Shown here: one piece after another, positions 1 through 16,918 of the stretch
How the letters are laid out: every line of letters begins with the position of its first letter
How positions within the stretch are numbered: position 1 is the stretch's first letter
DNA from: Halobacteria archaeon HArc-gm2
GTDB lineage: Archaea; Halobacteriota; Halobacteria; Halobacteriales; Haloarculaceae
Direction: 5' to 3'
DNA: 64,000 nucleotides
Assembly: GCA_025517465.1 (NCBI GenBank)
Contig: JAOPKE010000002.1
Span: 62,001-126,000, forward strand
Program-made: the position numbers and the translations under genes
The notes under the pieces: generated by a model
The model's database searches: none
What the model saw: only the letters and a program-made list of their open reading frames with translations
What the model was told of the DNA's origin: nothing

Positions 1-2
1 AC

Positions 3-959
3 TACGACATGGAGGGCCTCGCCGGCTGGGGGAGCAAGAAAGGGACCTGGGAACGCGCGATCAAGGCCGCCCAGACGCGACAGGGGATCGAGCCCGGCGA
101 GCCCGGAACCTACGAGAACGAGAGCGCGACGCTGCGGGACGCTATCTCCGTCCTGGAACAGATCGTGGAGGCACCTGACGCGTTCGAGACGGACGCGCTA
201 ACGGGCGACGAGGAGACTCGCGAGAAGCGTCGGGAACAGGCCCGGCAGATCATCGCCCACGACATCGAGCCGTTCCGCGCGAACGGCCGCTTCGAACACT
301 TCACCCGAACCTCCGACGTCGACCTCAAGCGTCACGACGTGGTCTACCTCGACTTCCAGCGCTACGAGTCCGACAAGCGCGCCGGCGGCCTGGAGATGCA
401 GATGCGCCTCTCGGACCTGTACGAGCAGGCCAAATCCTTCGAGGGCGAGACGTTCTTCGCCGTCGACGAGTTCAACTACATGCTTCGCAATCCCCGAGCC
501 AAGCAGTTCTTCAAGCAGACCCACCGGGCATCCCGGCACTGGGATCTGGCGGTCTGGCTCGCCACCCAGGAGATCAACGACCTCTTCGTCGAGAACGACG
601 ACGGGCTCGGGCTCACCGACTCCGCCCGCGTGATCTTCAACAACCAGGCCATGCAGCTCTACCACTACACGAAGGAGATGAACGACCGGTGGGGCGACGT
701 CCTCGACCTCTCGCAGCGCTCCCAGCACTTCGTCGACGACGCCCAGGTCGGCAAGAAGGAGGAAGGCTACTCCCAGGCGCTGCTCGTCGTCGACGAGGAC
801 GAGTACCCACTCAGGGTGGAGATGAGCGACCACATGAACCCCCGACAGTTCTCGATCTACCAGTACGACCCGACGAAGGCCGACCACAGCGACGACTTCC
901 GGGAGTTTCTCAGACAGTACGGTGATCGGGCCGACGTCTGCAACTGGAGGTGGGACTGA
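3..959 (+). CDS. VirB4-type conjugation ATPase, C-terminal part (5' end outside window)
   Basis: The reading frame is open back to the window edge, so the start is missing; the first visible Met (base 9) is internal. The visible 318 codons are the C-terminal half of a VirB4/TraC-like ATPase, which powers assembly of a type IV secretion or conjugation apparatus at the membrane. A Walker B-like strand (FFAVDEFNYML, about residues 150-160 of the visible part) is followed by WLATQEINDLF, the conserved sensor-type glutamine strand of this superfamily. The Walker A motif would be upstream of the window. The stop codon overlaps the next gene's ATG, and two more conjugation-type genes follow in the same direction. 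The family is fairly sure; exact subfamily is not. Confidence 0.75.
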   Translation, partial: YDMEGLAGWGSKKGTWERAIKAAQTRQGIEPGEPGTYENESATLRDAISVLEQIVEAPDAFETDALTGDEETREKRREQARQIIAHDIEPFRANGRFEHFTRTSDVDLKRHDVVYLDFQRYESDKRAGGLEMQMRLSDLYEQAKSFEGETFFAVDEFNYMLRNPRAKQFFKQTHRASRHWDLAVWLATQEINDLFVENDDGLGLTDSARVIFNNQAMQLYHYTKEMNDRWGDVLDLSQRSQHFVDDAQVGKKEEGYSQALLVVDEDEYPLRVEMSDHMNPRQFSIYQYDPTKADHSDDFREFLRQYGDRADVCNWRWD

Positions 960-2140
960 TGGGGCTGCGAAACGCCCTCTCTTTCGGTTCGTCGGGGAAC
1001 GACGGTCCCGGTACGCCGAACTCGATCGAAGTAGGTCAGGACCTCGTCGACGACCTCCGGGAGCGCGTCGAGGCGGCCGGTCCGGTCGTCCACCTGACCC
1101 CGTACAAGCGCGACCGCAATCACGACACCAGCCGGTCGTTCTTCCGGGGCGTCCACCGCGTTCGCCGTGGTGGGCCCAAACGGAGAGAGAACGTCTCCTC
1201 GCCGTTCACGTTCGAGATTCACTACGACGGCAGCGAGGGGACGATCGGCTTCCGCTACGTCGCCGACGAGGACGTCCTCCGGAGCGAGATTCGCCAGGAG
1301 ATCGAATCCTGCTACCACGATAGCGACGTGACCCGAAGTCCGCCCACGTTCGTCGACGTCGACGAAGGCGACTACGCCTCCGCGGCGTGGCTCACGCTAC
1401 GACATCCAGAGCCGCTCCGTCCGGTCAACAATCCGGGCCTCAACCCGAGTGACTTCCACCCCGACCCCTACGATTCGATCACGAGCAGAATGGTCGGCGA
1501 CGGGAGCCGGTCGGCCTCGGTCGTGACCCAGCTTGTGTTCAAGCCCGCAATCTCCCACGCTGACCAGGACTCGCTGAACTGGCACGACGGGGTCGACGAG
1601 GTCGCCAAGCGGATGAAAGAGCCCAACGAGGGGTTCCGGTGGCAAAGCATTCTCACGGTGGTCGCGAACACCTTCGTCGAGAAAGACCTGGACGTGAAAG
1701 CGACGCAGGAGGGGTACCTCTCCTCCGAGGACAAGGAGGCGGCGAACGTCATCGCGAACCAGCGCAACCGGAAAGGGTTCCACGTCATCATCCGCGTCGT
1801 CGCGATCGCCGACGAACCCGAGCTGGCCGAACGGCGAGTAGCGTCGACGTGCGAGAAGTACAGGAACTACTACAACTCCACCCACGGCCAGGGGTTCAAG
1901 CCGGTCTTCGACGTCGACGTCGGCGAGGTCCTCTCGAACGCCGCTCGTCGGAAGTGGATCGACCGGGAGATGCCCATGTCGCTCGACGAGGCCGTGGCGC
2001 TGGGCGCACCGCCGACGGATCTCAACACGCCCGCCGTCGAGTACACGCACCAGCGGTCCGACGAGGGCGTGCCAGCGTCCGTCGACGGGTTCGAAAAGTA
2101 CGACGAGACTGGCTACACCGACCGACAAGGAAACCCATGA
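959..2140 (+). CDS. Conjugation protein, probable N-terminal partner of the coupling ATPase
   Basis: This gives a 393-residue protein. I chose ATG at 959, which overlaps the upstream stop (TGATG) and has GGAGG just before it; GTG at 950 is the alternative. There is no ATP-binding motif or membrane segment. The middle (about residues 200-320) has the pattern WQSILTVVANTF ... KGFHVIIRVVAIAD, which resembles the domain that precedes the ATPase in many single-chain coupling proteins (I think of the DUF8128 type). Here that domain appears as a separate gene between the VirB4-like and VirD4-like ATPases, joined by 1- and 4-base overlaps. I infer that it works with the ATPase in substrate recruitment. 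The domain assignment is from memory. Confidence 0.55.
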   Translation: MGLRNALSFGSSGNDGPGTPNSIEVGQDLVDDLRERVEAAGPVVHLTPYKRDRNHDTSRSFFRGVHRVRRGGPKRRENVSSPFTFEIHYDGSEGTIGFRYVADEDVLRSEIRQEIESCYHDSDVTRSPPTFVDVDEGDYASAAWLTLRHPEPLRPVNNPGLNPSDFHPDPYDSITSRMVGDGSRSASVVTQLVFKPAISHADQDSLNWHDGVDEVAKRMKEPNEGFRWQSILTVVANTFVEKDLDVKATQEGYLSSEDKEAANVIANQRNRKGFHVIIRVVAIADEPELAERRVASTCEKYRNYYNSTHGQGFKPVFDVDVGEVLSNAARRKWIDREMPMSLDEAVALGAPPTDLNTPAVEYTHQRSDEGVPASVDGFEKYDETGYTDRQGNP

Positions 2141-5097
2141 GTGTGCCGAGAACGAGCGAGGAGCAGTTCCAAGATCCGGACTACGAGTGGCCCTACGACT
2201 TCCGCCCGGCGCCCGGACGCTCCGGTCGGGTGATGCGTGACGGCCACGAGTACAAGGTCTTCCGCGACCCCGAGGAGGAGACCGACGTCCCCGACCCGGA
2301 GGATGTCTTCGCCGGTGCGTGGCCGCGGGCCTGGATCGAGAATCACGCGAACGTCGACGACCAGCCGTTCTACGTCGGGATCGACGAGTACGCCGAACCG
2401 GTTCCGATCGAGCAGGAACAGATGTTCCGACACATCATCGGGCTCGGGCAGACCGGTGGCGGGAAGACCACCTTCCTCGAAACCGTGGGCGCCCAGCATA
2501 CCTGGTCAGGTAACGGGCTCTGCGTGGTCGATCCCGGCGGGGAGGCCGTCTTCAACATCATTCGCCAGGCGCCGGCGGACCGATTCGACGACGTCGTCCT
2601 CCTGGACGTCGGCGCCGACTACACCGACCGACACGTCGGCTTCAACCTGCTGGACACCTACCACGACCCGGGCGAACCCGGGTTCGACGTCGAAGTGGAG
2701 AACCGCGTCTCCGACATCCTCCCGCTACTGAACGCCGACGAGTACCAGCGCATGAAGGGCGTCGCCGCCCACGTTCTCCGGGGCCTGATCGAGGCGGATT
2801 ACACCCGCGAAGACAACGGCGAGTCGACGCGGTTCGGGGAGGCAGTCGTCGACCACTTCGGCGGTGACGAGGATACAGCGAGCGCCGACGAGAACTACAC
2901 GATCAACGATATGTACCACATCATCGGGAGCCAGTCCAACCGGGAGGCCTGGCACGAGATGGTGGTCGAGGAGGAACTCGTTCGCCTGGAGCCCTACGCC
3001 CGCATCCTCGCGGACATGGACGAGGGCGACAACAAGCTCGAACCCCTGATCCGACGACTCCGAAACTGGGTCGAGTCCGAGACCATCCGGCCCATCGTCT
3101 CCCAGCGGAAGACGACCATCTCCATCCCCGAGGTCGTCCGGGAAGGGAAGATACTGCTCATCAAGTGCGACAAGGCACCCGACGAGGTTCGCCAGATCGT
3201 CACGAGCGCGATATCCCGGATGATCTGGTCGGTCTGCATGGCTCGCCCGTCCTCCGAACAGCAGTTCCTGATGGAGGAGATGGGTGCGGAACTCCCGGAG
3301 GCCGTCGACGGCGACGAGGGGTACGAGCCGGAGCCGTTCTACCTGGTACTCGACGAGGTCCATTCGCTGCTGAGCAAGAACACGAAGATGGTCGACATGC
3401 TCGCCGAGGCCCGGAAGAAGAAACTCGGTCTGGTCCTGCTCACCCAGCAGCTGAACCAGCTTCCGAGTGGCCGCGCCGGCAACTTCGTCCAGGAGAAGAT
3501 CATCTCGAACACCGCGACGACCGTCGCCTTCCACCCCGGCGACGACGCGAAGGAGCAGAGCGCCGTCGCATCGGCGTTCCGCGATCGGTCGCCCAACGAC
3601 CTGCTCGTCGACCAGTTCCACGCAACCATGGCGATCACCGACGACCAGGGGAAGACGGCGCCGGGGTTCGTCGCCGAGATGGTCCCGCCCGTTCCACCGC
3701 GGCGCGGGCTCGACACGGTCGTCGAGATTCTGAAGCGCTCGCTCGACGAGTACGGCGTCGAGACGAAGTCCGCGGAGGAGGACCTCAAGACCGTCCCGGA
3801 TCGCTTCACGTCGGCCCTGGCGGGCCTCGACACACCCAACGATGGCGGTACCGTCCTCGAACTCACGGACGAACGAGCCGACCAGATCCTCGCCACGACC
3901 TTCGGTGTTCTCGTCGATCACGACTTCCCCAAGGGCGGTGCCCCTATCGACCCGGTGATCGAGCGGACCGAGCGACAGCTCTCGGTGAGCGGCCAGCACG
4001 TCGACACGCTGATCCAGAAGGCCAACGCCCAGGAGCTCGTCGACGTCACGCCCGACGGAGAACGTATCGAACTGACGCCCGACGGCCGCGAACAGCTGTG
4101 GGATTCGGGACAGTCGGGCAACGCCGGGAAGATCGGCCACCAGGCCCCCATGGAGTACATTGCACGCGGTCTCAGCACCCTCGGGTACCACGTCCGCGTT
4201 CCGCGCCAGACGGGCGACGAGATGCCCGACCTCGTGGCCGAGGTCCCGATCGAGACTGGCGGAGCGACGCTCGAAGAGGCCAAACAGAACCGGGAGCAGT
4301 TGCTCGACGACTACCCGGGAATCTTCGCGCTCAGTGGCGAGCAGGACGTCGCCGTCGAGTTCGAGAAGGCGACCCGTTCGGCGCCGGCGCAGATCGGCGA
4401 CAACCTGCGGAAGGGTGTCGAGAACGGCGACCACGTGCTATTCGTAGTGAACGCCGACGACGACGGCTTCGCCGACGGTGCACGCCAGATCTCGGACAAA
4501 CTCTCCGATCCGATGCTGACCTACACGAATGCCCGTACCCCGAACGACGCCGACCGTCGGTACCACCATTGCGACTACAAGTGCGCCGCGTCAGCGGATG
4601 GAGACAGCTACATCGCGCTCCCGGGAGACGTCACGTACCAGTGGGTAGACGACGGCGAGTCGGCAGTTGTGCTGCGCAACTCAGACGGAGACGAGTACGC
4701 GAGGTTCGATTCGATCGACGACTGGCTCGACCGCTCACCCGCCGATTTCCCGGTGACATACGAGGTCAGTGACGACGGCTACGTCGACGTCCGGGGAGAT
4801 GAGAACACGATTTCGAAGACCCAGTTCCGAGAGGAGTACACACCAGTCAGTTCGCCGCATCTACCGCGAGAGGAGTTTCAGGGCGAACTTCCGTCACCTG
4901 ACGCCTGGGATATCGCCGTGCTTCCCGACGATCCCGACCTCCCACTGCAGTACTACGATGCCGACGACGATACATGCTATCCACTCCCAGGCCTTACTAG
5001 CTCGGGTGCGTCAAAGGCCGATACCGAGGCCGATAGTTCGTTGGCGATAGTCGAAGAACCAGAGGACGATGACGATCTTTGGTCAAATCTGGTCTAG
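2137..5097 (+). CDS. VirD4/TraG-like coupling ATPase
   Basis: This 986-residue protein starts at ATG 2137, which overlaps the previous stop (ATGA); the frame is open further upstream but that part overlaps the preceding gene. Walker A (GQTGGGKTT) is near residue 110, Walker B (FYLVLDEVHSLL) near residue 400, and LVLLTQQLNQLP follows, as in coupling proteins that bring DNA to the conjugation pore. No clear N-terminal membrane anchor is visible, unlike many VirD4 proteins, so membrane attachment may come through the partner gene. The region after residue 560 has winged-helix-like segments and an acidic tail. It is the last gene of the conjugation operon in the window. Confidence 0.75.
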   Translation: MSVPRTSEEQFQDPDYEWPYDFRPAPGRSGRVMRDGHEYKVFRDPEEETDVPDPEDVFAGAWPRAWIENHANVDDQPFYVGIDEYAEPVPIEQEQMFRHIIGLGQTGGGKTTFLETVGAQHTWSGNGLCVVDPGGEAVFNIIRQAPADRFDDVVLLDVGADYTDRHVGFNLLDTYHDPGEPGFDVEVENRVSDILPLLNADEYQRMKGVAAHVLRGLIEADYTREDNGESTRFGEAVVDHFGGDEDTASADENYTINDMYHIIGSQSNREAWHEMVVEEELVRLEPYARILADMDEGDNKLEPLIRRLRNWVESETIRPIVSQRKTTISIPEVVREGKILLIKCDKAPDEVRQIVTSAISRMIWSVCMARPSSEQQFLMEEMGAELPEAVDGDEGYEPEPFYLVLDEVHSLLSKNTKMVDMLAEARKKKLGLVLLTQQLNQLPSGRAGNFVQEKIISNTATTVAFHPGDDAKEQSAVASAFRDRSPNDLLVDQFHATMAITDDQGKTAPGFVAEMVPPVPPRRGLDTVVEILKRSLDEYGVETKSAEEDLKTVPDRFTSALAGLDTPNDGGTVLELTDERADQILATTFGVLVDHDFPKGGAPIDPVIERTERQLSVSGQHVDTLIQKANAQELVDVTPDGERIELTPDGREQLWDSGQSGNAGKIGHQAPMEYIARGLSTLGYHVRVPRQTGDEMPDLVAEVPIETGGATLEEAKQNREQLLDDYPGIFALSGEQDVAVEFEKATRSAPAQIGDNLRKGVENGDHVLFVVNADDDGFADGARQISDKLSDPMLTYTNARTPNDADRRYHHCDYKCAASADGDSYIALPGDVTYQWVDDGESAVVLRNSDGDEYARFDSIDDWLDRSPADFPVTYEVSDDGYVDVRGDENTISKTQFREEYTPVSSPHLPREEFQGELPSPDAWDIAVLPDDPDLPLQYYDADDDTCYPLPGLTSSGASKADTEADSSLAIVEEPEDDDDLWSNLV

Positions 5098-5561
5098 AAC
5101 GCCGCTGACTCCACCGTGACATCGGTGCAGCCGTATTCGTTCGATATCGTCGACACGACCGCATCGTAGCGGATGTCCACTTCACCCGTTGTCGGAGACC
5201 CATTTTCCGTTTGAACCGTCACGGTGGCTGTTCTCGTCGTCCCCCCGCAGGCCGAATCGATGGCCTCCTCTTTCGTCTCTTCTGCCTGTCCCGGTTATCG
5301 GTAATAGCGAAGCGGAAACGATACAGTCTCGACTTCTTGTTCAGTTCCGGGAATCACCTGAATGGAAGGCTTCGGATACTCGTTACCGGGAATTTTCACG
5401 CCTAAGACATCGGATGGGTTTGATGGGGCAAGGACTCCCTCAGTTGCCCCGAAGAACGTGAATGTGATCGGGACGTCACCTGTGTTTGCGATCGTTGCTC
5501 GGAGGCGACCACCGAACGGCTCATACCTATCAGAAAAGTACCAGTATAGGGACAAGATCAA
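5094..5561 (-). pseudogene. Broken gene for a beta-rich protein, in-frame TAA and missing 5' end
   Basis: On the minus strand one frame runs from a TTG at 5561 to a TAG at 5094-5096 and is interrupted once, by TAA at 5295-5297. Both halves look like real haloarchaeal protein: the first has NTGDVPITFTFFGATEG and the second has CGGTTRTATVTVQTENGSP, suggesting one beta-sandwich protein of about 155 residues. An in-frame TGA lies immediately before the TTG, so the true start has been lost. Its 3' end overlaps the coupling-ATPase 3' end by 4 bases. I read it as a decayed gene cut at the junction with the AT-rich cargo. A sequencing error at the TAA cannot be excluded. Confidence 0.5.
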
Positions 5562-6257: not shown

Positions 6258-6890
6258 CTATCTTCTCTTTCCGATCTCTTGTTGTATGGAGTTGAAAACG
6301 GCCTCTACCTCCTGGTCAGCCTCTAACTCATTTAAAACCCCTTGTTTACGATATGATTCGACAACGGGGGCTGTCTTTGATTGATATTCCTCTATGCGTT
6401 TGCGGATTGATCCTGGCGAATCATCCGCTCTTTGCGAGAGATTACCTCCACAATCATGACAGTCCTCTAACTTTCCTTTTGATCGGGTTTTAGTATTATA
6501 AATGGCGCCGCACTCATCGCATACTATTCTATATTTCAATCGTTCGGTTAGTATGTCCTTTGATACCGATAGATAAAACACTCCATCAATTGAGGCCTCT
6601 TTTTCTACTATAGCTGCCTGTGAAGTATCACGAGGATACCCGTCTAGAATAAATCCTTCAGAGTCGGATATCTCCTGTGAGACCATTCGGTCAATTATTG
6701 GATTGGGAACCATTTCGCCCTGATCAATATACTCCTTTGGCTTCCCCCATTCAGTCACCATATCCTTATTTTCCCTAAGAAGCTTCCCAGTTTGAATATG
6801 TTTTATCTGATAATCATTCGAAAGTAGGCGAGACTGAGTACTTTTCCCTGCTCCTGGTGGGCCCATTAAGACGATTTGTAAATCTTCCAT
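6258..6890 (-). CDS. Adenylate-kinase-like nucleoside monophosphate kinase
   Basis: At 210 residues it has the length of a long-type adenylate kinase. The P-loop is GPPGAGKST (residues 9-17), the NMP-binding part has QTGKLLRE, and DGYPRD is the conserved Arg-containing motif. The LID carries a four-cysteine zinc site (CDECG ... CHDCG, about residues 123-148). Known family chemistry is phosphate transfer between ATP and AMP. It is the last gene of the six-gene minus-strand operon, 9 bases after the dUTPase-fold gene. An accessory kinase beside a PurZ-like enzyme could phosphorylate an unusual deoxypurine monophosphate; that is inference. Codon use is A+T-rich, unlike core haloarchaeal genes, so I take it as horizontally acquired rather than the housekeeping adk. 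Confidence 0.85.
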   Translation of the reverse strand: MEDLQIVLMGPPGAGKSTQSRLLSNDYQIKHIQTGKLLRENKDMVTEWGKPKEYIDQGEMVPNPIIDRMVSQEISDSEGFILDGYPRDTSQAAIVEKEASIDGVFYLSVSKDILTERLKYRIVCDECGAIYNTKTRSKGKLEDCHDCGGNLSQRADDSPGSIRKRIEEYQSKTAPVVESYRKQGVLNELEADQEVEAVFNSIQQEIGKRR

Positions 6891-6899
6891 AGCCGTGTA

Positions 6900-8024
6900 C
6901 TAGTCCAGGATTCTCATAATTGCGGCGAAAACGAGTGCCAGGATAGTAACAATTGCTAAGACTGCCAAGGATACCCCTCCAATGAAAATGCCAGTATCGA
7001 TCAGGGGCAGTTCGCCAGAGAAACTATTGCCTTGAGTAAAGAGCAAAGATAAAGTCGTAAAAAGAACAGCTAATATCGTCGCAATCGCACCAAACGATAA
7101 CCGAACGACACGCCCTAGCCGATCAACTTCACCCTCTATCTCTTCTATCTCGCCTTTAACTTCAGAAAACAGTGCGCTCTTAAGCTCTTCTGGATCGTAG
7201 TCTTGAAATACGATTTGATCCTTTTTCATCTCATATTTCATGGGCTTAGCATACTCCTCTTCCCCTTCATCAGGCTCCCAGTCCGTGGTTTTTTGAGGAT
7301 ATCCATCTTCTACCCACTCAGTCGTTTTTACAAAGTCAATCCTGGCTAATCTGTCTCCTTCGGACAATTTTACTGGATCATCTGAGAGATTGTAAATTGG
7401 GCAGAATAGATATCCAGAATAACCTGGATCGACCTGCGGCCCCCCAACCCAGAGCAATCCATCATATGCATGAGCAACCCTGATATTCCATCTTCCAATT
7501 AGGAAGTGAGGCATGTTGAGGCGTTCTTTAGTTTTTATTACAGCGACCTGAAATGGCGGAATTTCGAAGGATTCATTTTCTACTAATCTATTGCTTTCCC
7601 CTTCCACAGAATATTGATCACCAATACGAAGTGAATACGAGGCGGGCTTGAGATTCTTTTCTTTAAATGGCTTAATTAGCGAATGTTCCTTTGAGTAATA
7701 GTATATCTGATCTTTTAGCAAAACACCCCCATTCCGCCCATTATCAATATCATCGCCGTTATCTAGAGGATCTTTTGTTCGTCGATCATCCTCCAGTGAT
7801 TGAATTAAATTCCAGAGAGACTCACGCTCTTTATACGTGTTACTATAATCAAACCATCTCTCTATATCTTCTCGGTCTTTTTCATCTAAATCATCATCGG
7901 CGATTAGTGCACGACCAATTTGGTGAAGAAAATCGTCGTATCTCCCTTTCAGTGTCTTTTCCGCGATAGAGAGTTTCTTGCGCAATGAGTCTGGATCCCG
8001 CTCATCATCAGAGGAGCTTGCCAT
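6900..8024 (-). CDS. Membrane-anchored dUTPase/dCTP-deaminase-fold protein
   Basis: The 374-residue protein has three parts. Residues 1-90 are charged and helical. Residues about 120-270 have the dCTP-deaminase/dUTPase fold signature: KPASYSLRIG, then IGRWNIRVAHAYDGLLW and QVDPGYSGYLFCPIYNLSD. Two hydrophobic segments lie at about 308-330 and 345-370, after a likely coiled coil (EEIEGEVDRLGRVV). dCTP deaminases use a Glu in the strand after the DPG.SG turn; here that strand reads LFCPIYN, so the deaminase Glu seems absent, while the Asp of VDPGYSG, as in dUTPase motif III, is kept. It may bind or hydrolyse a dNTP, or sense it, at the membrane. It starts 2 bases after the PurZ-like gene stops. 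Confidence 0.65.
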   Translation of the reverse strand: MASSSDDERDPDSLRKKLSIAEKTLKGRYDDFLHQIGRALIADDDLDEKDREDIERWFDYSNTYKERESLWNLIQSLEDDRRTKDPLDNGDDIDNGRNGGVLLKDQIYYYSKEHSLIKPFKEKNLKPASYSLRIGDQYSVEGESNRLVENESFEIPPFQVAVIKTKERLNMPHFLIGRWNIRVAHAYDGLLWVGGPQVDPGYSGYLFCPIYNLSDDPVKLSEGDRLARIDFVKTTEWVEDGYPQKTTDWEPDEGEEEYAKPMKYEMKKDQIVFQDYDPEELKSALFSEVKGEIEEIEGEVDRLGRVVRLSFGAIATILAVLFTTLSLLFTQGNSFSGELPLIDTGIFIGGVSLAVLAIVTILALVFAAIMRILD

Positions 8025-8026
8025 TG

Positions 8027-9058
8027 CTACTCCCCCCTATCGATGAGATCTTCATCAAAGGGGCCAGTTCCAGCCATTGACACGGGAGTGTCTAAATTCG
8101 TCTCTAGATTTGCAATGAAATCCTGGGCCTCCGATGTGAGCCCAGGGAATGATTCAGCATCCAAATTATCGTAATCCAAGAAATCTGTTCCCATAAGCGC
8201 GATTTCAGAAGGGCTGTTCGCTTGAACAGCCTGCTCTACGATATCGAGATCGAACCGACCAACCCGACGAATACGCTCCGTGACAGAGGTCCTTTCTTCA
8301 ATTAGATGGGGGTAACCACTCTCATGTTGGATAGTCTCCCAATCAATCTCATTCGGCAATGGTCCAGAGTTCCCTGGAACCCGGATCGGGAACGTCCGTA
8401 ATACCATAATCACTTTCGACACTTCAAGCGGACTAATTCCAACCTCACCTACGAAACTGGCAGCCGTTGTATCACGACTCGTAGTATACGGGTAATTTGA
8501 AGAATGATATACAGATAATCCAAAACCTTGGGTTCCCTCAATGACAACGTCTTGTCCACTATCATGAGCTTGTTGAACTTGCTTAGCTACATCTCCGGTA
8601 TATGGATCTAAATCTGCGACCTCACTCGCTAATTGTACGTCGTCCGATCGAAGAGATCGTTTTGCAACTGCGACCCCAGTTCCAGAGCAAGTCGAACTAA
8701 TCCGTTCTCGGAGCTTTCGTTCCTTTTCTTCCTCTATGTATTCATCTTGAATGATAACCGCGTTATCATCGATCAGGAGCCTATTTGAATCGAGGTCAAA
8801 ATGCTCGATTTCCTCGAGTAAGATATCGAGATTGATCAGGCATCCTGCTGCGAGGTAAAGCTGTGTTCCGGGGTCGACGACTCCAGCTGGAATTTGTTGT
8901 AGAACATACTGATCACCATCAATAGTCACAGTGTGGCCGGAGTTAGGCCCCCCACATCGAACAGTAACATCGTAGTTCCGGTTACGGGTGAGATGGGCCG
9001 TAACTTTTCCCTTCCCTTCACTTCCGAATTGGCCACCAACGACGACAGCAATACTCAT
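8027..9058 (-). CDS. purZ-like: PurZ-like adenylosuccinate synthetase homologue (Ser at the catalytic Asp)
   Basis: At 343 residues it has the short archaeal/viral length (bacterial PurA is about 430). Visible family motifs are the P-loop-like GGQFGSEGKGK (residues 8-18), PNSGHT with the catalytic His at 42, SGTGVAVAKRS, EGTQGFGLSVYHSSNYP, and the Asp-binding loop RTSVTERIRRVGRFD. PurA joins IMP and aspartate using GTP, with an Asp (E. coli D13) in GDEGKGK as base. Here that position is Ser13. As I recall, phage PurZ, which acts on dGMP toward 2,6-diaminopurine nucleotides, has Ser in a QFGS.GKG motif. The start overlaps the upstream stop by 4 bases (ATGA). Family certain; PurZ-type substrate is inference. 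Confidence 0.8.
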   Translation of the reverse strand: MSIAVVVGGQFGSEGKGKVTAHLTRNRNYDVTVRCGGPNSGHTVTIDGDQYVLQQIPAGVVDPGTQLYLAAGCLINLDILLEEIEHFDLDSNRLLIDDNAVIIQDEYIEEEKERKLRERISSTCSGTGVAVAKRSLRSDDVQLASEVADLDPYTGDVAKQVQQAHDSGQDVVIEGTQGFGLSVYHSSNYPYTTSRDTTAASFVGEVGISPLEVSKVIMVLRTFPIRVPGNSGPLPNEIDWETIQHESGYPHLIEERTSVTERIRRVGRFDLDIVEQAVQANSPSEIALMGTDFLDYDNLDAESFPGLTSEAQDFIANLETNLDTPVSMAGTGPFDEDLIDRGE

Positions 9059-10692
9059 GGTTTTCCTTTCATTGTTTCAGCTTTCTTTTCATCCTCGATG
9101 AGTGGGACGACAATGCCGCTCTCTTCGGAGCGTCCTATATGTTCGTACTCGTCCGCTAAATAAAAGTGTCCAACTAAGGCTGACGTCAACGCGTCTAATT
9201 CGTCATTTGTGATTTTATTCTCAAACGCCGTGATTTCGATTCCTGTAGATAATAGCCCCTGTTCCAATTCCTCGAGACTAACCTGTTTTCGCGGGATTTG
9301 CAGCACGTCTTGTGCGGCACCGGGAAAACTCTCAATTGTCTCATACCCGTGCTCTTCGAATACGTTCGATAACCGCATTCCTCGAGCGGTAAGCCCCTGC
9401 ATGCTATCTATCAAACATGGATATGCATTGACTCCTCTTTGCTTTAATATCCGCTCAGCTTCGCGCATGATCCCGTGTTCACGGCATTCACAGCTATTTT
9501 CGACACAGCAACGTCCTTCTGGAAGGGTAAGCGGAGAGTCGATAGAGATCACCTCAGGGTCGGCCTCCAGGACCATTTGGATGATTTCATCGTCAGTCTT
9601 TGCGGTACTCAGGCTCGCATCGGTTCCCTCGAGCTTACAGAGTCCTGTGACGCTATTTTCCGACCCAGAGAGATCAATGCCCACTGAGATAGGTTCCCTT
9701 CCGTTCAAGTTGATAGCATCAATCAATGCGTCAATGTCTTGGGATGGCTGATTAATCCGATTATTTTCCACCGTTACAAGACGGCGTTCGCCATCATAGA
9801 CCTTGATAGCCTTTCCACCCGTCTCGACATTGATGCTTGGATGTTCAATACTGAGCTCGTTGCCAGTGGCAATCTCTTCAGGAATTGACCTCGAATGGTT
9901 CTCGGATATTTCATTCAGGGTCGTCTGGAAGACAGCATCCGTTATTTCTGACTGGAGCTCCTCTGCTTTCCGACGGTAGATCTCGATAAGCAGCTTAGCT
10001 AGATTCACAGCATCGTAGATATTGTATACCGCGAGTCGCCCGAAGGCCTTCTTATCCCCACGAAGAAACTGGCGCCAGAGGACGGGAGCTTCAGATCCTT
10101 GGAAATCACTGACAGCATTAGGCCTCTCGATATCGAGTTCGCTTTCTAATTCCTTGAGTGGTCCTGACATCCCGACACCTTTGCCAAGATAGAGTAGATC
10201 AAGATGTGCCGGAGGAATTGATATCTCTGGAAACTGCTCTTTAAGGAATACTTGATCGAATCGCTTTCCATTGAAAGTGACGAGTAGTTCGTGTTGTTCG
10301 ATAAGGTCTGGTAGTTCATCGAGATTATGATCCTTGACGAACAACTGTGCAGACCTTCCGTCAAATGTTCCTACAGTGGTTATCCGGTCGTAATACCATG
10401 ATAGTCCGGTAGTTTCGATATCCAGATATAACACCGAGTCTTGAAACTGTTCTAACAACCGCCAGTACTTGTTCTGGGGTAACTTCTCTGTGAAGTAGCT
10501 GGCATCGGCCTCTTCGACCGCTTCTTGCGCATCACTCAGGTATTTCTGAATAGCTGGGGCGGAGACTCGATTATGTGGGACTTCTTGAGTATGCTGTTCT
10601 AAGTCTTCCCAGGTCGTGATACCCTTCTGCCAAAGCTCTCGCTCGGTCTGCTCACCGATCCCCGGAATAAAGGTGAACGTGTTTTTTAGCAT
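9055..10692 (-). CDS. HhH / DEDD exonuclease / DUF429 fusion protein
   Basis: The 545-residue protein begins with a helix-hairpin-helix segment (IPGIGEQTERELWQKGI, residues 9-25), as in DNA-binding and helicase-associated proteins. Next is an RNase H-like 3'-5' exonuclease of the YprB type: LYLDIETTGL gives Asp91 and Glu93, followed by LVTFNGKRFD and a C-terminal YNIYDAVNL Asp. From about residue 330 a second RNase H-fold unit of the DUF429 type starts (SVGIDLSGSENSVTG), including a Cys-rich stretch (CCVENSCECREHG). The ATG sits inside the end of the preceding small gene, and its stop overlaps the PurZ-like start. I infer nucleic-acid processing; the substrate is unknown. Confidence 0.7.
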   Translation of the reverse strand: MLKNTFTFIPGIGEQTERELWQKGITTWEDLEQHTQEVPHNRVSAPAIQKYLSDAQEAVEEADASYFTEKLPQNKYWRLLEQFQDSVLYLDIETTGLSWYYDRITTVGTFDGRSAQLFVKDHNLDELPDLIEQHELLVTFNGKRFDQVFLKEQFPEISIPPAHLDLLYLGKGVGMSGPLKELESELDIERPNAVSDFQGSEAPVLWRQFLRGDKKAFGRLAVYNIYDAVNLAKLLIEIYRRKAEELQSEITDAVFQTTLNEISENHSRSIPEEIATGNELSIEHPSINVETGGKAIKVYDGERRLVTVENNRINQPSQDIDALIDAINLNGREPISVGIDLSGSENSVTGLCKLEGTDASLSTAKTDDEIIQMVLEADPEVISIDSPLTLPEGRCCVENSCECREHGIMREAERILKQRGVNAYPCLIDSMQGLTARGMRLSNVFEEHGYETIESFPGAAQDVLQIPRKQVSLEELEQGLLSTGIEITAFENKITNDELDALTSALVGHFYLADEYEHIGRSEESGIVVPLIEDEKKAETMKGKP

Positions 10693-10847
10693 CGGATTAG
10701 ATCACTCTCCATCTGGGGGTGGTCTACTGTAGAGGTAATTGGCTGGTCATTTAAACTAACTCCTTGCCCAATTACCGTGTATGCATTATACCATCCCCGC
10801 TCCGGTTCGGAAGATAACCCCATAATCACTGGTTGGTTAGCACTCAT
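10686..10847 (-). CDS. Small coupled gene, 53 residues, between HD and exonuclease genes
   Basis: The apparent 151-base gap between the HD gene and the exonuclease gene is filled by this ORF. Its ATG (10847-10845) overlaps the HD stop as ATGA, and its TAA (10688-10686) lies within the first codons of the exonuclease gene. Exact fit between two overlapping neighbours, and no internal stop over 53 codons, argue for a real gene. The product starts MSANQPVIMGLSSEPERGWY and contains TVIGQGVSLNDQ. No membrane segment, no cysteine pair (one C-terminal Cys) and no family I recognise. Confidence 0.65.
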   Translation of the reverse strand: MSANQPVIMGLSSEPERGWYNAYTVIGQGVSLNDQPITSTVDHPQMESDLIRC

Positions 10848-12121
10848 TTTTGGGGCCTGTGGTCCCCCGTCCGATTGTTCACGAATCCATTGGTTGTCTG
10901 GACATCCAATACAGTGCTAGTTGATTCTCTGACGTCCTGAACATGCTCTTCTGGGCAATATATTCCTAATCGCCATTGGTTCCGATTTGTAGATTCAAGA
11001 GCCCGTATGATTGATGAGGCATCGCGAAGCGGTCGCGGGTGCCCGTTTTCAATTACATGAGTCTCAGATTCTGGTATAGATGGCCGGTCAGGAATATCTA
11101 CAATCACGTTTGTTGAATCGAGACCAGCGTTTTCTGCGATCAAGTCTTCGTAAGACCGTTCTTCTTCCCGAGATGCATCTAGAACTTGCTCAGGCACAGA
11201 GTGGATCCCAACCCATACTGCTTGTTTGAATAGATCTCTATTATCCAGACGATTGATCAGGGATTGTGTGGCGGGCTCCTTTCGGAGTTTGACTGTTAGG
11301 TCATGGTCATCCATCCGACGTAGTTTCTGAGCTGAAAGTTGGTTTGTCTCCAGAAGCATTTCAGTAGCCCGCAACAACATTGCTTCGCAAATTCTGGCGG
11401 TAGGATGGTTATAGACAGTCGGGTTCATCAAAGCGCGGGCTGTTAGTAGATTTTCCGCCACCTCTTTATTCCCCTCCTTGATGGATAATTTCTTCTGGGC
11501 GAATGTGAGTGTGTGAATCAGGTGATCGTGGTCAATGTTTCCGTACGGAACACCTGCATGATGGGCATCACGGGCGAGATAATCCATCCGGTCTACATCT
11601 AGTTCTCCAGAAATCAGTTGCCCATACTTGCCTTTTCCGGACACTAGATCGGCGATATAGCCCGGATCGATATCAAAGTCTGAAAGGATGTCGTTTACGG
11701 GCCCCTCCTCCAGAAGATCTTCTACCTCTTCGTGTGTCTTTCCGAGATAGGACTCGAGAATTGGTTCAGTATTATGACTGAACGGACCATGACCAATATC
11801 ATGGAGAATAGCAGCTGCACGGATGCATTCACCTTCATGTGCACCAATATCTAATTTCTCAAGAGCTTGGTCCGCAAGATAATACACGCCCAGGCTATGC
11901 TCGAACCGTGTATGATTTGCTGATGGATAGACTAAAGAGGTGTTCCCCAACTGCTGAATCCCCCGGAGACGCTGGACTACAGGGGTATCTATGAGCTCTT
12001 CCGCGATTCCCTCCACATCGATATGCCCCTGGATAGCATCCTTTATCGTAATCATGAGGGAGTCTACCTGATATTTTGCCCTGATCCCTAATAAGTTCCC
12101 GCAAGATAGACGTGTAACCAT
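10844..12121 (-). CDS. HD-domain phosphohydrolase (SAMHD1/dGTPase-like)
   Basis: HD metal ligands are visible: RFEHSLG (His), AAILHDIGHGPFSH (His-Asp) and DVDRMDYLARD (Asp). QRLRGIQQLG and YPSANHTRFEHSLG are typical of SAMHD1-type dNTP triphosphohydrolases and their archaeal relatives. The first Met gives 425 residues and fits a leaderless start, since a TATA element lies about 24 bases upstream; by family comparison the domain begins at the in-frame ATG at 12055 (403 residues, MITIKDAIQGH). It is the first gene of the six-gene operon. dNTP hydrolysis is the usual family chemistry; removing a competing dNTP such as dATP would parallel DatZ in phages, which is inference. Confidence 0.75.
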   Translation of the reverse strand: MVTRLSCGNLLGIRAKYQVDSLMITIKDAIQGHIDVEGIAEELIDTPVVQRLRGIQQLGNTSLVYPSANHTRFEHSLGVYYLADQALEKLDIGAHEGECIRAAAILHDIGHGPFSHNTEPILESYLGKTHEEVEDLLEEGPVNDILSDFDIDPGYIADLVSGKGKYGQLISGELDVDRMDYLARDAHHAGVPYGNIDHDHLIHTLTFAQKKLSIKEGNKEVAENLLTARALMNPTVYNHPTARICEAMLLRATEMLLETNQLSAQKLRRMDDHDLTVKLRKEPATQSLINRLDNRDLFKQAVWVGIHSVPEQVLDASREEERSYEDLIAENAGLDSTNVIVDIPDRPSIPESETHVIENGHPRPLRDASSIIRALESTNRNQWRLGIYCPEEHVQDVRESTSTVLDVQTTNGFVNNRTGDHRPQK

Positions 12122-12384: not shown

Positions 12385-13740
12385 TTATATTAAGTGTTCT
12401 AATATGGTCGTAAGCTCCGATTCGAGCTCTCCAGCTTGTAGAATAGAAATCTCATTAGTCTCCTGGTTTCCTATCGAAGCGGTATCTTCCTCAAGATCCT
12501 GAATCACCAATAGACCGTTCCAGCCACTCCCAAAGTAGTCCTCCGTCTCGCGCTTTCCAAACACGAACTCGTCATTGACACGAAGGAAGGCCAGGTACTC
12601 GACGGTCTCTTTGATGCCTCGCCGAATAGTATCACTATTGGTGCTGTTCTTCACCTCGACAATCAGGTATTCGTGCTCCCCGTTTTCCTCGTCGATCACC
12701 TCCATTACGATGACGTCAGGCCTGCCAGTGTGATTCTCGAACGTCCTCTCCGTGAAGTACTCGTTTGCGACGCTTCGAGCGACTGTCTGTACCTTCTCCG
12801 TCCGAGAAAGGGCCCTCTCTGCCGCCTCGGGAACGTCGGAAACGAAGGATAGGTCCCGGTCTCGAGCAGAATTGTCGTGATACAGGACGATCTCTTTCTC
12901 TCCCTCGAGTCGGGCGATCTCTTGCCTGTCCGACGCAATCGTCTTGAACTTGAATTCTCCCTCTCGGAGGTCCTCCAGAGTGGAGACAAATCGAAAAAGC
13001 ACGAAGAGCTCGAAAAGCGCGTGGTCATCGTCGGGAGTGATAGCGGTCTCGTCGAGGAGGTCGCGAAGGGCCTCTTCCTCTCCGTCGAAGAGAGCGGCCC
13101 GAGTGCGTAGCAGCGAGGCGGCCTCTCGGTAGACCCGCTGCCGTGAGTTCTCGGCGGTCGTGAGCATCCGCTCCGTCGGCTCATAGACGTCCGGTTCCCT
13201 AATCCGTCGGACATGGACGTTCCGTTCGACGATCCGATTCAGATCGTCGATCAGGTCTTCGTTTCCTCTCCACGTCTCCCTGACCCACTCGTATTCGCCG
13301 CGAAGATAATCCTCGGCTTCGCGCAGCGTCTCGTGAATCACCGAGAGAAGCCGCTTCAGAACGACGTTCTCGGCGATGTCGTAGTCCTCGGACCGATTGT
13401 CGCAGACGAAGAGGGAGCCGTCGTCTGGATTTCGAGAATACCGCTCTTTTATCGTCGAATTCCAGTTGATGTGACCGTCGACCCTCCCGCGACGGGTCCT
13501 CGAGACCGTCTGGGTCTCCGTCCGAACGTTCCGGAGATGTGCGGGTAACTCGCGCACGAACTCGATGACGTCCTCGGTCAAGATGAAGTGCAGGTCGAGG
13601 AGAAGCTCGTAGTCCTCGAAGCGCTCGTCCAGCCCGTCGGGTTTGATCGACCGGGCAATCTCGTCCTCGGGGAACGCCCCGTGCATCACGTAGGTGAGCA
13701 CGTCCTGTGTCAGTTGGTCCAGGAGCTCTTCTCTATTCAT
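12385..13740 (-). CDS. McrC-like PD-(D/E)XK nuclease subunit
   Basis: The protein has 451 residues. The N-terminal two thirds are mostly helical, with the McrC-like pattern of a long charged domain. The C-terminal nuclease core has GRPDVIVMEVID and YLIVEVKNS (about residues 338-365), giving the D...E-x-K residues of PD-(D/E)XK enzymes. McrC is the endonuclease partner of the McrB GTPase in modification-dependent type IV restriction. The start lies 8 bases inside the end of the McrB-like gene, so the two are coupled. Its GC-rich 5' half differs from the A+T-rich neighbours, which hints at a mosaic origin. Confidence 0.75.
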   Translation of the reverse strand: MNREELLDQLTQDVLTYVMHGAFPEDEIARSIKPDGLDERFEDYELLLDLHFILTEDVIEFVRELPAHLRNVRTETQTVSRTRRGRVDGHINWNSTIKERYSRNPDDGSLFVCDNRSEDYDIAENVVLKRLLSVIHETLREAEDYLRGEYEWVRETWRGNEDLIDDLNRIVERNVHVRRIREPDVYEPTERMLTTAENSRQRVYREAASLLRTRAALFDGEEEALRDLLDETAITPDDDHALFELFVLFRFVSTLEDLREGEFKFKTIASDRQEIARLEGEKEIVLYHDNSARDRDLSFVSDVPEAAERALSRTEKVQTVARSVANEYFTERTFENHTGRPDVIVMEVIDEENGEHEYLIVEVKNSTNSDTIRRGIKETVEYLAFLRVNDEFVFGKRETEDYFGSGWNGLLVIQDLEEDTASIGNQETNEISILQAGELESELTTILEHLI

Positions 13741-16700
13741 CGTCGGAAATGGTCACTTGCAACATCTCGGCTGCCGCGTCCCCGAGACCACCGGCGTCAA
13801 TCTGCCGGACGTTCGAGATCTGGCGGATAATCTGCTCTCGCTTAGGGACGCCTTCTAGCTGGGGGAAGACGTAGCTGATGACGGCCCGCGTGAGACGGTC
13901 CTCGAGCGGGATTGCGTCGTTCTCGGCGACATACTCGACGATGTCCTTCACGATGGCCGGACCGATGGCCCGGTCCTCGACAGCTCCATTCATCTCCCGC
14001 CAGACGCGACCGATGGCGAGGAGTTCTGCCTGGTCGCGCTCCGCCACTGAGATATCCCATGCCTCCGCGTATTCGTGCATCAGGTCGCCCATCTCGTCGT
14101 CGCTGTCTGGGATGGAAGGAGCACCAACGCGAATGAACGCGAATCGGCGCATGAACGCGTAGCTCATCTCGTAGAGCGACGTCTTGTCGTAGGTGTTCAT
14201 CGTCGCAAAGATCCGCCAAGACTCGGGCACGACGTACTGATGGGGCTTCGGCCGTCGATCGGTCTCCGCCGCAGAGATGAGCTTGATCTCTTCGCCGTCT
14301 CTGGTGTACGGTAGCTGGACCGATTGACCAGAGAGGAGCGTGAATAGCTGTCCGAACGCCTTGTCGATGTCCGCGCGATTGAGTTCGTCGATGACGAGTG
14401 GTTCGTTCACCTGCCGGCCCGTCCGGCGCTCTTTGAGCCGGTTCAGCACTACCCCAGGCGTGAACGAGAGCTCGTCGCTCCCGCCCTCGGTCGACTCGGG
14501 CATGTAACCTCCAACGGTGTCGAAGGTAGACCAATCGGCTGTAGCCGTTGTGAGTTGAAAGTCTGAGTAGAGATACGGGTACTCCAACGCGAGGTGTGAA
14601 CAAACTCGCCGAGCGATTTCTGTCTTTCCAGTTCCGGGTGGACCCGTGAGAATGATGTGCTTCCCGGAGCGTAGTGCCGCTTCTATTTGCTGAACGATTT
14701 CGTCCTTTTGATCTCCGGGAAAATACAGACCGTCGAGCGGGTCCGTTGGTATGGAGCCCTCGAACTCCGCATGTGCATTGATCGTCCCTGTCGGCTTCAA
14801 CCGGTCTGCGACCGCATTGAGCAACGCCCGAGGGCGTTCATAGTCCGGAGACCCATCGTTGTCTCTGAAAACGCCGTGGGCCCCCTGTGCTGGGAAACTA
14901 ATTCCATTCGTCTCTTGGCAGATGGATTGGACCCGTTTGAACCCGAGGAGATTGGCAGTGAGGGCATCCATCTGTTCCTCGAGCTCGTCATTGGACATAT
15001 TGTCGACTCTCTTCGACGTGTTTAGGCGGTCGAGGTTGCTGGTGAGATATAGCTCATCGAATCCGGCCAAATACAGAAATGGATCCTCTTGGGTCTCGTC
15101 GGTCCACCAGCGGCCGTCTTTCATCGATTTCTCCCCGATTATCCCGACGCCGAAGATACCGTGCGGCTGGTCGCTGATCGCCTCGGTTGCAGCCTCTGAA
15201 CGGGTGTGGAGGAACGCAATAGTCCCTGATTCGATTGATTCCCACACGCTTCTTGTATCCGACTCGAATGAGACAGTGCCGTATTGGACTGCTGTCAGCC
15301 AATACTCCGGTGGGGCAGTGAACTTTCGGATGGGTTGGTCTGAATTCTCAAGAATCTCGACCAGTGCATGATCTCTCGTCTTGGTTGTCGCTCGTTCTCC
15401 CTCTTGAACAGTTTCCGTGTAGGTCTCCCGGAGAATACTGTTAAGTTGCGGCTGACTCAGGAATCCGTTCGGAACGTCCGCTTCTTCTTGGAGAACCCGA
15501 AAACTTCCCAGGAAGAGAGTTTTCGCCGTAGAGAAATCATCAAATGATCCGACCCCGAGTTCCTCCGCTTTCGTCTCGAGTGTCGGTTCGGCAGATTCGT
15601 AGAATTCCCGAATTTGGTCGTATTTCGCAGCCGTTTCGGCAGTTACCTGGTCGGACGGTTTGTACCCGGCGAGTGCTGTCGACCAGTCGGCGATAATCGC
15701 CTCGCCGAGGCGGTCGTTAAGCCAGGCCGTGTCCCGTGGGACCCGGTCCAGTCGATTCCGGATGTCTTCTATCGCGTCATCAAGCGAGTCGTACTCGTCC
15801 CTAGCTTCGATACCGGGACTTACGAGATCCCGTATCGGATACCCCTTCTCTTCCAGTTCCGATTCTAACTCCTCTGATTCCGCGCTGATGACGGCCAGAA
15901 GTTCCGGAGGGCACCGCGTGAAGTACCCCCCTTGCACGAGGGCGAGGTTCTTATCGAAGAAGATGTTACTGTACTCCTCCCGAACCTCTCGAAGCCGGGA
16001 CTCGTATGCTCGGTTATTGAGCACCTCGTCGTAGATATCGATGGGCTCTTCTAACTCTCGATAGCCGGTCAGCCAGCGGCGGTATCCCGCTTGGTCGTCC
16101 GTCCAGCCGAACTCCGGGAGTCCCTCGAAGTCGGTGTCGAGTTCGGACTCGATTGTGGAGATGCCCACAATCTGACCTTTGTCCTGGAGGAGATGGAGGA
16201 CTATGTCGCCGGGATCAGCCTCCCGCATCTGTGCGTATCGGTCGTGTCCCTGCTTGTCCTGTGTCGGCGAGTAAATCGCATTGCCAAGCTGCAGCTCGCC
16301 TTCTTTCTTGTAGGTCCGACCCTCGATTTCGGTCTTCTCGATCCAGACTCGTGGCTCGGCATCAGGACTATTTGATTGAGTACCTGTCCCATTGCCGGAA
16401 CCCATTTCATCGAGTTTCGCTTGGATACGTTCCTCGTCGATATCATCCAACGACAGTGATTCAGTAGCATAGGCAAACAATGCATCCCAGTCGTCTGGAA
16501 ATCTGGCTAACTCGCCTTCATATGCCCCATCACCGGTGATAGTGATTTTCTGGTCCCCTTTCGAGTACGTTTCTTGGAGGATGATTTCACCGGGAATGAA
16601 TAGGAAGTGGTCTCGAGACTCATCGAATTCCCCCTTGGATTCAATATCCAGTTGGATACTGCACACCCGTTGCTCGGGATCCTCTTCGAGCCGCTCTTGT

Positions 16701-16918
16701 TCGCGGTCGAACCGCTGCCACATTTGCTCTTCGCCGCTTTCAGTCCGATAGCTACGGCTCGAAGCGGCGGAAATTCGAACTTTGCCCGCTACCGGATCTT
16801 CCTGTCCTAGTAGAAAATGAAAGATTCGACCGTCGATGTCGGTATTGACGGGGATACCGCGCTCACTTGCTTGTTGCTCAAGGATAGCCAACCAGTCTTC
16901 TATCGCGTCACGAGGCAT
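13733..16918 (-). CDS. McrB-like AAA+ ATPase with EVE-like reader regions
   Basis: In this 1061-residue protein the AAA+ core lies at about 735-930: Walker A LTGPPGTGKTEIARR (near 755), Walker B EPLVIDELNRAD (near 838), and MNTYDKTSLYEMSYAFMRRF as sensor and arginine finger region. Upstream are two regions with EVE/PUA-like signatures, GDIVLHLLQDKGQIVGISTI (about 240-260) and IAFLHTRSEAATEAI ... HGIFGVGIIGEKSM (about 560-610). EVE domains in McrB relatives read modified bases. I infer a type IV restriction motor that recognises modified DNA and drives the McrC-like nuclease. The nucleotide used (GTP or ATP) cannot be told from sequence. Confidence 0.8.
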   Translation of the reverse strand: MPRDAIEDWLAILEQQASERGIPVNTDIDGRIFHFLLGQEDPVAGKVRISAASSRSYRTESGEEQMWQRFDREQERLEEDPEQRVCSIQLDIESKGEFDESRDHFLFIPGEIILQETYSKGDQKITITGDGAYEGELARFPDDWDALFAYATESLSLDDIDEERIQAKLDEMGSGNGTGTQSNSPDAEPRVWIEKTEIEGRTYKKEGELQLGNAIYSPTQDKQGHDRYAQMREADPGDIVLHLLQDKGQIVGISTIESELDTDFEGLPEFGWTDDQAGYRRWLTGYRELEEPIDIYDEVLNNRAYESRLREVREEYSNIFFDKNLALVQGGYFTRCPPELLAVISAESEELESELEEKGYPIRDLVSPGIEARDEYDSLDDAIEDIRNRLDRVPRDTAWLNDRLGEAIIADWSTALAGYKPSDQVTAETAAKYDQIREFYESAEPTLETKAEELGVGSFDDFSTAKTLFLGSFRVLQEEADVPNGFLSQPQLNSILRETYTETVQEGERATTKTRDHALVEILENSDQPIRKFTAPPEYWLTAVQYGTVSFESDTRSVWESIESGTIAFLHTRSEAATEAISDQPHGIFGVGIIGEKSMKDGRWWTDETQEDPFLYLAGFDELYLTSNLDRLNTSKRVDNMSNDELEEQMDALTANLLGFKRVQSICQETNGISFPAQGAHGVFRDNDGSPDYERPRALLNAVADRLKPTGTINAHAEFEGSIPTDPLDGLYFPGDQKDEIVQQIEAALRSGKHIILTGPPGTGKTEIARRVCSHLALEYPYLYSDFQLTTATADWSTFDTVGGYMPESTEGGSDELSFTPGVVLNRLKERRTGRQVNEPLVIDELNRADIDKAFGQLFTLLSGQSVQLPYTRDGEEIKLISAAETDRRPKPHQYVVPESWRIFATMNTYDKTSLYEMSYAFMRRFAFIRVGAPSIPDSDDEMGDLMHEYAEAWDISVAERDQAELLAIGRVWREMNGAVEDRAIGPAIVKDIVEYVAENDAIPLEDRLTRAVISYVFPQLEGVPKREQIIRQISNVRQIDAGGLGDAAAEMLQVTISDDE

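Follow-up and report, generated by a model that had tools for sequence, protein, structure and literature searches.

The protein encoded at positions 8,027 to 9,058 of the window (the whole stretch of 64,000 nucleotides analysed here) belongs to the same clade as phage PurZ, and its gene lies in an operon that is conserved in cellular genomes. To date, the synthesis of 2-aminoadenine (Z) has been viewed as a means by which phages evade restriction, and its enzyme PurZ has been assigned to phages, with a vague archaeal origin. Here this enzyme proves to be common in cellular genomes from at least 25 phyla, where it is found within a conserved multi-gene unit; if Z nucleotides are made, cells also produce the precursor of a fifth base, most likely for immunity. 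Phage PurZ would then have an identifiable source, and a modified nucleotide would have a new use. Taken as a whole, the reading of the operon as a cell-encoded PurZ pathway for a Z nucleotide, acting against viruses together with a membrane effector, appears to us somewhat probable. Among its parts, the predicted Z-nucleotide chemistry is well supported by sequence comparison, a defence role is likely, and the step by which a signal would reach an effector is a guess made by analogy with other defence systems that nucleotides trigger.

The PurZ-like protein and its relatives

The open reading frame is on the minus strand, starts with ATG and encodes 343 amino acids, with GGQFGSEGKGK at residues 8–18; Ser13, the retained His42 and the length are as given in the preliminary description of this DNA. 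The plus-strand frame at the same positions is riddled with stops and was rejected as a gene. The protein matches the Pfam family PF00709 (Adenylsucc_synt) with 187 bits and the phage PurZ family PHROG_1211 with a higher score (261 bits). By sequence, its top match in the PDB is the short archaeal PurA (2D7U/5K7X type, 211 bits), and further matches are the Arthrobacter-type PurZ0 7VF6 (164) and the PurZ of phiVC8 (6FKO/6FM1, 123). It stays under the cut-off of the NCBIfam PurZ model NF038379 (245 of 300 bits) and also under those of all PurA models (330 of 368 bits for NF003295). The full-length housekeeping PurA of the same genome is encoded elsewhere, on contig 1 (512 bits).

The substrate-contacting residues found only in PurZ are Ser23, Thr273 and Gln308 (S-2L numbering), in addition to an insertion after Val241 (PMC8342488). 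The first two are retained in the window protein as Ser13 and Thr257, at positions occupied by Asp and Gly in 20 of 20 PurA, and the insertion is present as NSG (in VPGNSGPLP) and absent from the same 20 sequences. At the site of the third residue (Gln308/Asn297, linked to ATP as donor) the window protein carries Asp292, in common with all PurA sampled and with three of three PurZ0; this mark divides PurZ from PurZ0, not PurZ from PurA. In E. coli PurA the corresponding function is known, Asp333 reading the guanine of GTP, and the presence of Asp292 thus suggests that GTP is the phosphate donor of the window enzyme. The Arg of PurA that contacts the 2′-OH (E. coli R303) is not lost, Arg262 being aligned there; this position is Lys in phiVC8 and PurZ0 and is varied in the cellular relatives. 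Because Arg262 keeps the PurA-type contact, the sequence leaves the choice between dGMP and GMP unsettled. That the enzyme probably prefers a 2-amino purine is a sound inference.

Relatives were collected from GTDB genomes with a four-sequence alignment as query, which returned 371 relatives in cellular genomes, and 80 loci were kept. These 80, plasmid loci included, come from 25 named phyla of bacteria and archaea, and the highest identity to the window protein among them is 63%, in Lokiarchaeota (L042). Two search patterns were used, one of which omits residue 13; in the loci carrying the latter, residue 13 is Ser or Gly and never Asp. By contrast, archaeal short PurA has GGF[FW]GDEGKG, with Asp13, in 30 of 30 sampled sequences, and all long PurA have Asp13 as well. 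In an IQ-TREE analysis of 66 rows, the 46 Ser/Gly13 rows (cellular, viral, and phage PurZ and PurZ0) form one group with support of 100/100, present in 200 of 200 bootstrap trees, and a tree of 101 rows agrees. Within it, the window protein falls in a subclade with Lokiarchaeota, Peptococcaceae, Clostridia, WOR-3 and one viral contig (support 99/98 in the 66-row tree), while archaeal Asp13 PurA falls outside and archaeal short PurA is the next sister group. The proposal of a PurZ-type enzyme is therefore supported by the 100/100 group, Ser13 and Thr257, and the PurZ insertion, and in trees including phage PurZ and PurZ0 the protein is not placed inside ordinary archaeal PurA. In the tree, the proteins nearest to it are not archaeal PurA but this large family of cellular homologues. 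The suggestion in the preliminary description that a PurZ-type enzyme in a haloarchaeal integrated element would be new has to be qualified: PMC12884076 (NAR 2026) already notes archaeal homologues that carry Ser or Gly at this site and branch off at the base of phage PurZ, so that their existence is not new. The four archaeal sequences described there very probably belong to the same cellular family, and the passages concerning them give neither an operon nor a function.

Phage PurZ0 (Arthrobacter Wayne and Christian, Gordonia Ghobes) is 39–43% identical to the window protein and has in common with it GGQFGSE[GA]KG, the NSG insertion, Thr at the 257 site and Asp at the 292 site. The PurZ of phiVC8 and S-2L belongs to the same clade and keeps Ser23 and Thr273, but identity drops to 27–32%, the ATP-linked N/Q308 is Asp in the window protein, and the partners DatZ and MazZ do not accompany the window gene. 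Archaeal short PurA of the Pyrococcus horikoshii type (2D7U/5K7X, NF003295) matches the window protein in length and domain set, but differs from it by Asp13, by Gly at the Thr257 site, by the lack of the insertion and by its position outside the Ser/Gly13 clade; the window protein has neither the Asp13 of archaeal short PurA nor a place among Asp13 PurA. An ordinary PurA paralogue acting on IMP, kept as a spare or regulatory copy, would fit with the common Pfam family and with the sister position of archaeal short PurA; it is nevertheless hardly credible, given the missing catalytic Asp13, the PurZ insertion with Thr257, and the separate PurA of the same genome. A separate PurA is likewise present in 18 of 20 genomes that carry the module (17 full length and, in Methanophagales, one short Asp13 PurA). 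A haloarchaeal variant of PurA was rejected as well: among 391 Halobacteria genomes only that of the window has the gene, the other matches being long PurA.

Two homologues deserve a separate mention. A 188-kb IMG/VR contig (L122:9995–11068) carries a PurZ that nests beside the window clade, with neither the nuclease fusion nor the membrane protein described below; IMG/VR gave no matches to a single-protein query and did give matches to the alignment. The Methanophagales homologue L044:1749–2834, with Gly13, contains an in-frame TAA and may be broken or mis-assembled.

Operon layout and recurrence

In the window, the PurZ homologue is one of four genes in the same direction, transcribed from 10,692 to 6,258:
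9055..10692, minus strand, nuclease fusion of 545 aa: HHH, DEDDy 3′-5′ exonuclease (RNase_H_2) and DUF429 (RuvC-like)
8027..9058, minus strand, homologue of succino-2-aminoadenylate synthetase in the PurZ clade, 343 aa, Ser13 (from Pfam, PHROG_1211, trees and residues)
6900..8024, minus strand, dUTPase/dCTP-deaminase-fold protein of 374 aa with two C-terminal membrane helices (DCD-TM)
6258..6890, minus strand, NMP kinase of the adenylate-kinase family with lid, 210 aa, filling the kinase slot of the operon

The start of the PurZ gene overlaps the end of the nuclease gene by 4 bp, and gaps of 2 bp and 9 bp separate it from the 374-aa gene and the latter from the kinase gene. The ORFs around the relatives were searched by phmmer with the proteins of the window operon. 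Nuclease fusion, PurZ and DCD-TM run in one direction in 35 of the 57 relatives with enough flank; of the same 57, 46 have DCD-TM near PurZ and 40 have the nuclease there, and the intergenic gaps are mostly –58 to +39 bp. As the loci were chosen by PurZ alone, the co-occurrence of the partners is independent evidence. The PurZ gene is not a stray provirus gene but a member of a conserved operon, which the earlier reading missed, and this operon has spread horizontally. In the open literature (bioRxiv and most subscription journals lie outside this scope) no paper on a cellular PurZ operon or a PurZ-based defence was found.

In the nuclease fusion, the exonuclease residues D91, E93, D146, Y223 and D227 and many acidic residues of DUF429 are invariant in 30 homologues, and the AlphaFold model (pLDDT 89) has structural matches to NrnC/diDNase-type exonucleases and to RuvC. 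In relatives from several anaerobes a PolX-type PHP domain with HHH takes the place of the exonuclease; the two are unrelated routes to a similar trimming of DNA. Among 194 Halobacteria genomes, the whole fusion is covered only by the protein of the window. Its N-terminal HHH and RNase_H_2 part (about 250 residues) is matched in 194 of 194, apparently by a ubiquitous exonuclease-like protein.

The kinase is a paralogue of the Adk of the same genome (contig 14). A P-loop kinase was recognized in 49 of 65 loci, either fused to the nuclease, free, or on the N-terminus of PurZ, and a deoxynucleoside kinase of the dNK family is next in line at 27 loci. An adenylosuccinate lyase gene follows the operon in Lokiarchaeota and Methanophagales; the Lokiarchaeota copy looks dedicated, because a separate housekeeping PurB that scores better exists in that genome. 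This anatomy strongly suggests the half of the pathway that would lead from exonuclease through PurZ and lyase to kinase.

The membrane protein is replaced in part of the family. A family of AAA+ ATPases of 590–870 aa stands in the position of DCD-TM downstream of PurZ in six loci (L054, L057, L058, L064, L074 and L097), mostly from Planctomycetota, Verrucomicrobiota and Acidobacteriota, and DUF7002 stands in for it in some other relatives; the putative membrane effector is consequently not universal. A second type of module, in which a kinase-PurZ fusion is accompanied by DUF7002, was observed at L035, L036, L038–L041, L099, L120 and L121, and its rhizobial plasmid form adds a YfbR-like HD protein and a protein of about 450 aa with no assigned function. 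A further family of about 257 aa, which starts with MQNR[YF][FV]GD[VI]GDFGKYGLLR and contains FLDPDNG, lies beside PurZ in 21 loci (e.g., L049:11956–12759 and L066:12144–12914), often where the kinase is not recognized, and matches no Pfam family over the cut-off.

Genomic surroundings

Between 6 and 20 kb the G+C content of the window is 43–56%, in a genome that is otherwise mostly above 60%. Upstream of the operon this segment contains:
10844..12121, minus strand, HD and HD_assoc_2 protein of 425 aa, SAMHD1/dGTPase-like, 151 bp upstream of the nuclease gene
12385..16918, minus strand, pair of McrC-like and McrB-like (AAA_5) genes, McrB assigned from profiles and McrC from position only

The McrB-like protein has AAA_5 near its C-terminus (754–926) and a long N-terminal part to which no Pfam family was assigned. 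Neither the SAMHD1-like HD gene nor the McrBC-like genes are conserved near the relatives, and both were rejected as members of the module; the HD gene may encode an additional dNTPase that works with the module, or may belong to defence on its own. At the other side, positions 1–5,100 hold an ORF resembling a P-loop ATPase with VirB4/HerA-type motifs (GQTGGGKTT), directly after which the G+C content drops from 65% to 43%; the ORF suggests an integrated conjugative-type element. Duplicated tRNA-Ala ends that could serve as attachment sites were searched for in the window, and none was found.

The low-GC island, the clade common with phage PurZ, and the nesting of some IMG/VR contigs near the window (L122) could also indicate that the element in the window, or the virus from which it came, makes 2-aminoadenine DNA as Z-phages do. 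We consider this very improbable. The PurZ0 genes of phages adjoin a DpoZ polymerase and DutZ/DmtZ, whereas the window gene adjoins a nuclease fusion, a membrane DCD protein and a kinase in a cell, and no DpoZ-type polymerase is present in the window module or recurs as a neighbour family of the cellular homologues. The nuclease fusion was not found among the 2.9 million viral contigs of IMG/VR, which gave two weak matches, both to the exonuclease only, so that a viral origin by way of the nuclease was rejected; the operon, moreover, resides in cellular genomes of 25 phyla.

A role in defence is indicated by the neighbourhood of the relatives. Those on plasmids are next to AbiEii, SIR2, UvrD/PD-(D/E)XK and other defence-type genes. 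In 14 genomes, with 114 proteins per set, 59 PADLOC families were recovered at E ≤ 1e-15 around the module (restriction-modification, IetA, SspH, DRT and CapP among them) against 16 around the housekeeping purA of the same genomes, figures that serve for contrast rather than as a test statistic, since families and not proteins were counted. The core genes themselves gave only weak local matches with PADLOC 2023 (PDC-S44 with the DUF429 part, VakA with the kinase and dGTPase with the HD protein). Kinase, lyase and synthetase are also a metabolic set, as would be expected for nucleotide salvage, repair or a natural product such as a diaminopurine nucleoside, and a distant Asp13 relative lies in a deazapurine-type cluster of Rhizobium leguminosarum. 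To this alternative we assign a low probability, given that the distribution is defence-rich, patchy and mobile, that no transporter or tailoring enzyme recurs, and that the nuclease and the membrane partner are conserved. The R. leguminosarum plasmid cluster (L037:11375–19721) encodes FolE, a short PurA with Asp13, PurB, QueE, QueC, IMP dehydrogenase, nitrile hydratase alpha and a phosphoribosyltransferase, and looks like a deazapurine nucleoside pathway; it was set aside as a relative, its short PurA being on a different branch.

Proposed pathway and possible role of DCD-TM

According to the antiviral reading, dNMPs would be set free upon infection, both by the exonuclease and by the degradation of DNA that the virus brings about. 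PurZ, as a GTP- or ATP-driven ligase, would attach aspartate at the C6 position of dGMP, or possibly of GMP, with succino-2-aminoadenylate as the product. This would be converted to 2-aminoadenine (Z) monophosphate by adenylosuccinate lyase, either that of the host or the dedicated copy of some relatives, and the operon kinase would raise the monophosphate to the di- or triphosphate. The Z nucleotide, which is absent from normal cells, would then be bound by the dUTPase-like domain of DCD-TM, whose membrane part would damage the membrane and halt the infection. Of the elements of this scheme, the clade, the active-site residues, the conserved operon with its kinase and occasional lyase, and the defence-rich surroundings are observations, while substrate, product, trigger and effector role are proposals. 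The specific version of a widespread prokaryotic antiviral system, in which PurZ would make an infection signal for the membrane effector out of dGMP set free by the nuclease, and phage PurZ would derive from, or have been exchanged with, a cellular immune enzyme, is tentative. Phages have Z-nucleotide gene sets of which the operon is a variant; should the signalling reading hold, it would be something categorically new.

The main rival concerns DCD-TM itself, since in PurZ0 phages the hydrolysis of dATP and dGTP is carried out by DutZ, an enzyme that resembles dUTPase (PMC12884076). In DCD-TM, the DCD-like domain might likewise cleave dNTPs as a pyrophosphatase instead of serving as a receptor; the dUTPase-like and HD enzymes would then hydrolyse dNTPs, supplying dGMP and removing dATP, PurZ and the kinase would fill the pool with dZTP, and viral DNA synthesis would stall, or the DNA would be mis-made and cut by the nuclease. 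Such a poisoning of the pool is rather unlikely in our estimation, although several observations fit with it. The core of DCD-TM is confidently predicted (pLDDT mostly 93–98), it is closest in fold to the Thermococcus dUTPase 8Y1W (TM 0.83 on the target) and it keeps the VDPG motif, common to the dCTP deaminase/dUTPase family (8Y1W, 4XJC); YfbR-like HD proteins lie by the rhizobial PurZ, and the SAMHD1-like HD gene lies in the window. On the other hand, the catalytic deaminase Glu of 4XJC is replaced by an invariant Pro209, so that DCD-TM should not deaminate, and the RSS..R phosphate motif is lost in the profile alignment. DCD-TM also differs from that family by its extra membrane helices; a membrane helix is predicted in 60 of 63 DCD homologues, a feature unexplained for a soluble enzyme of the nucleotide pool.
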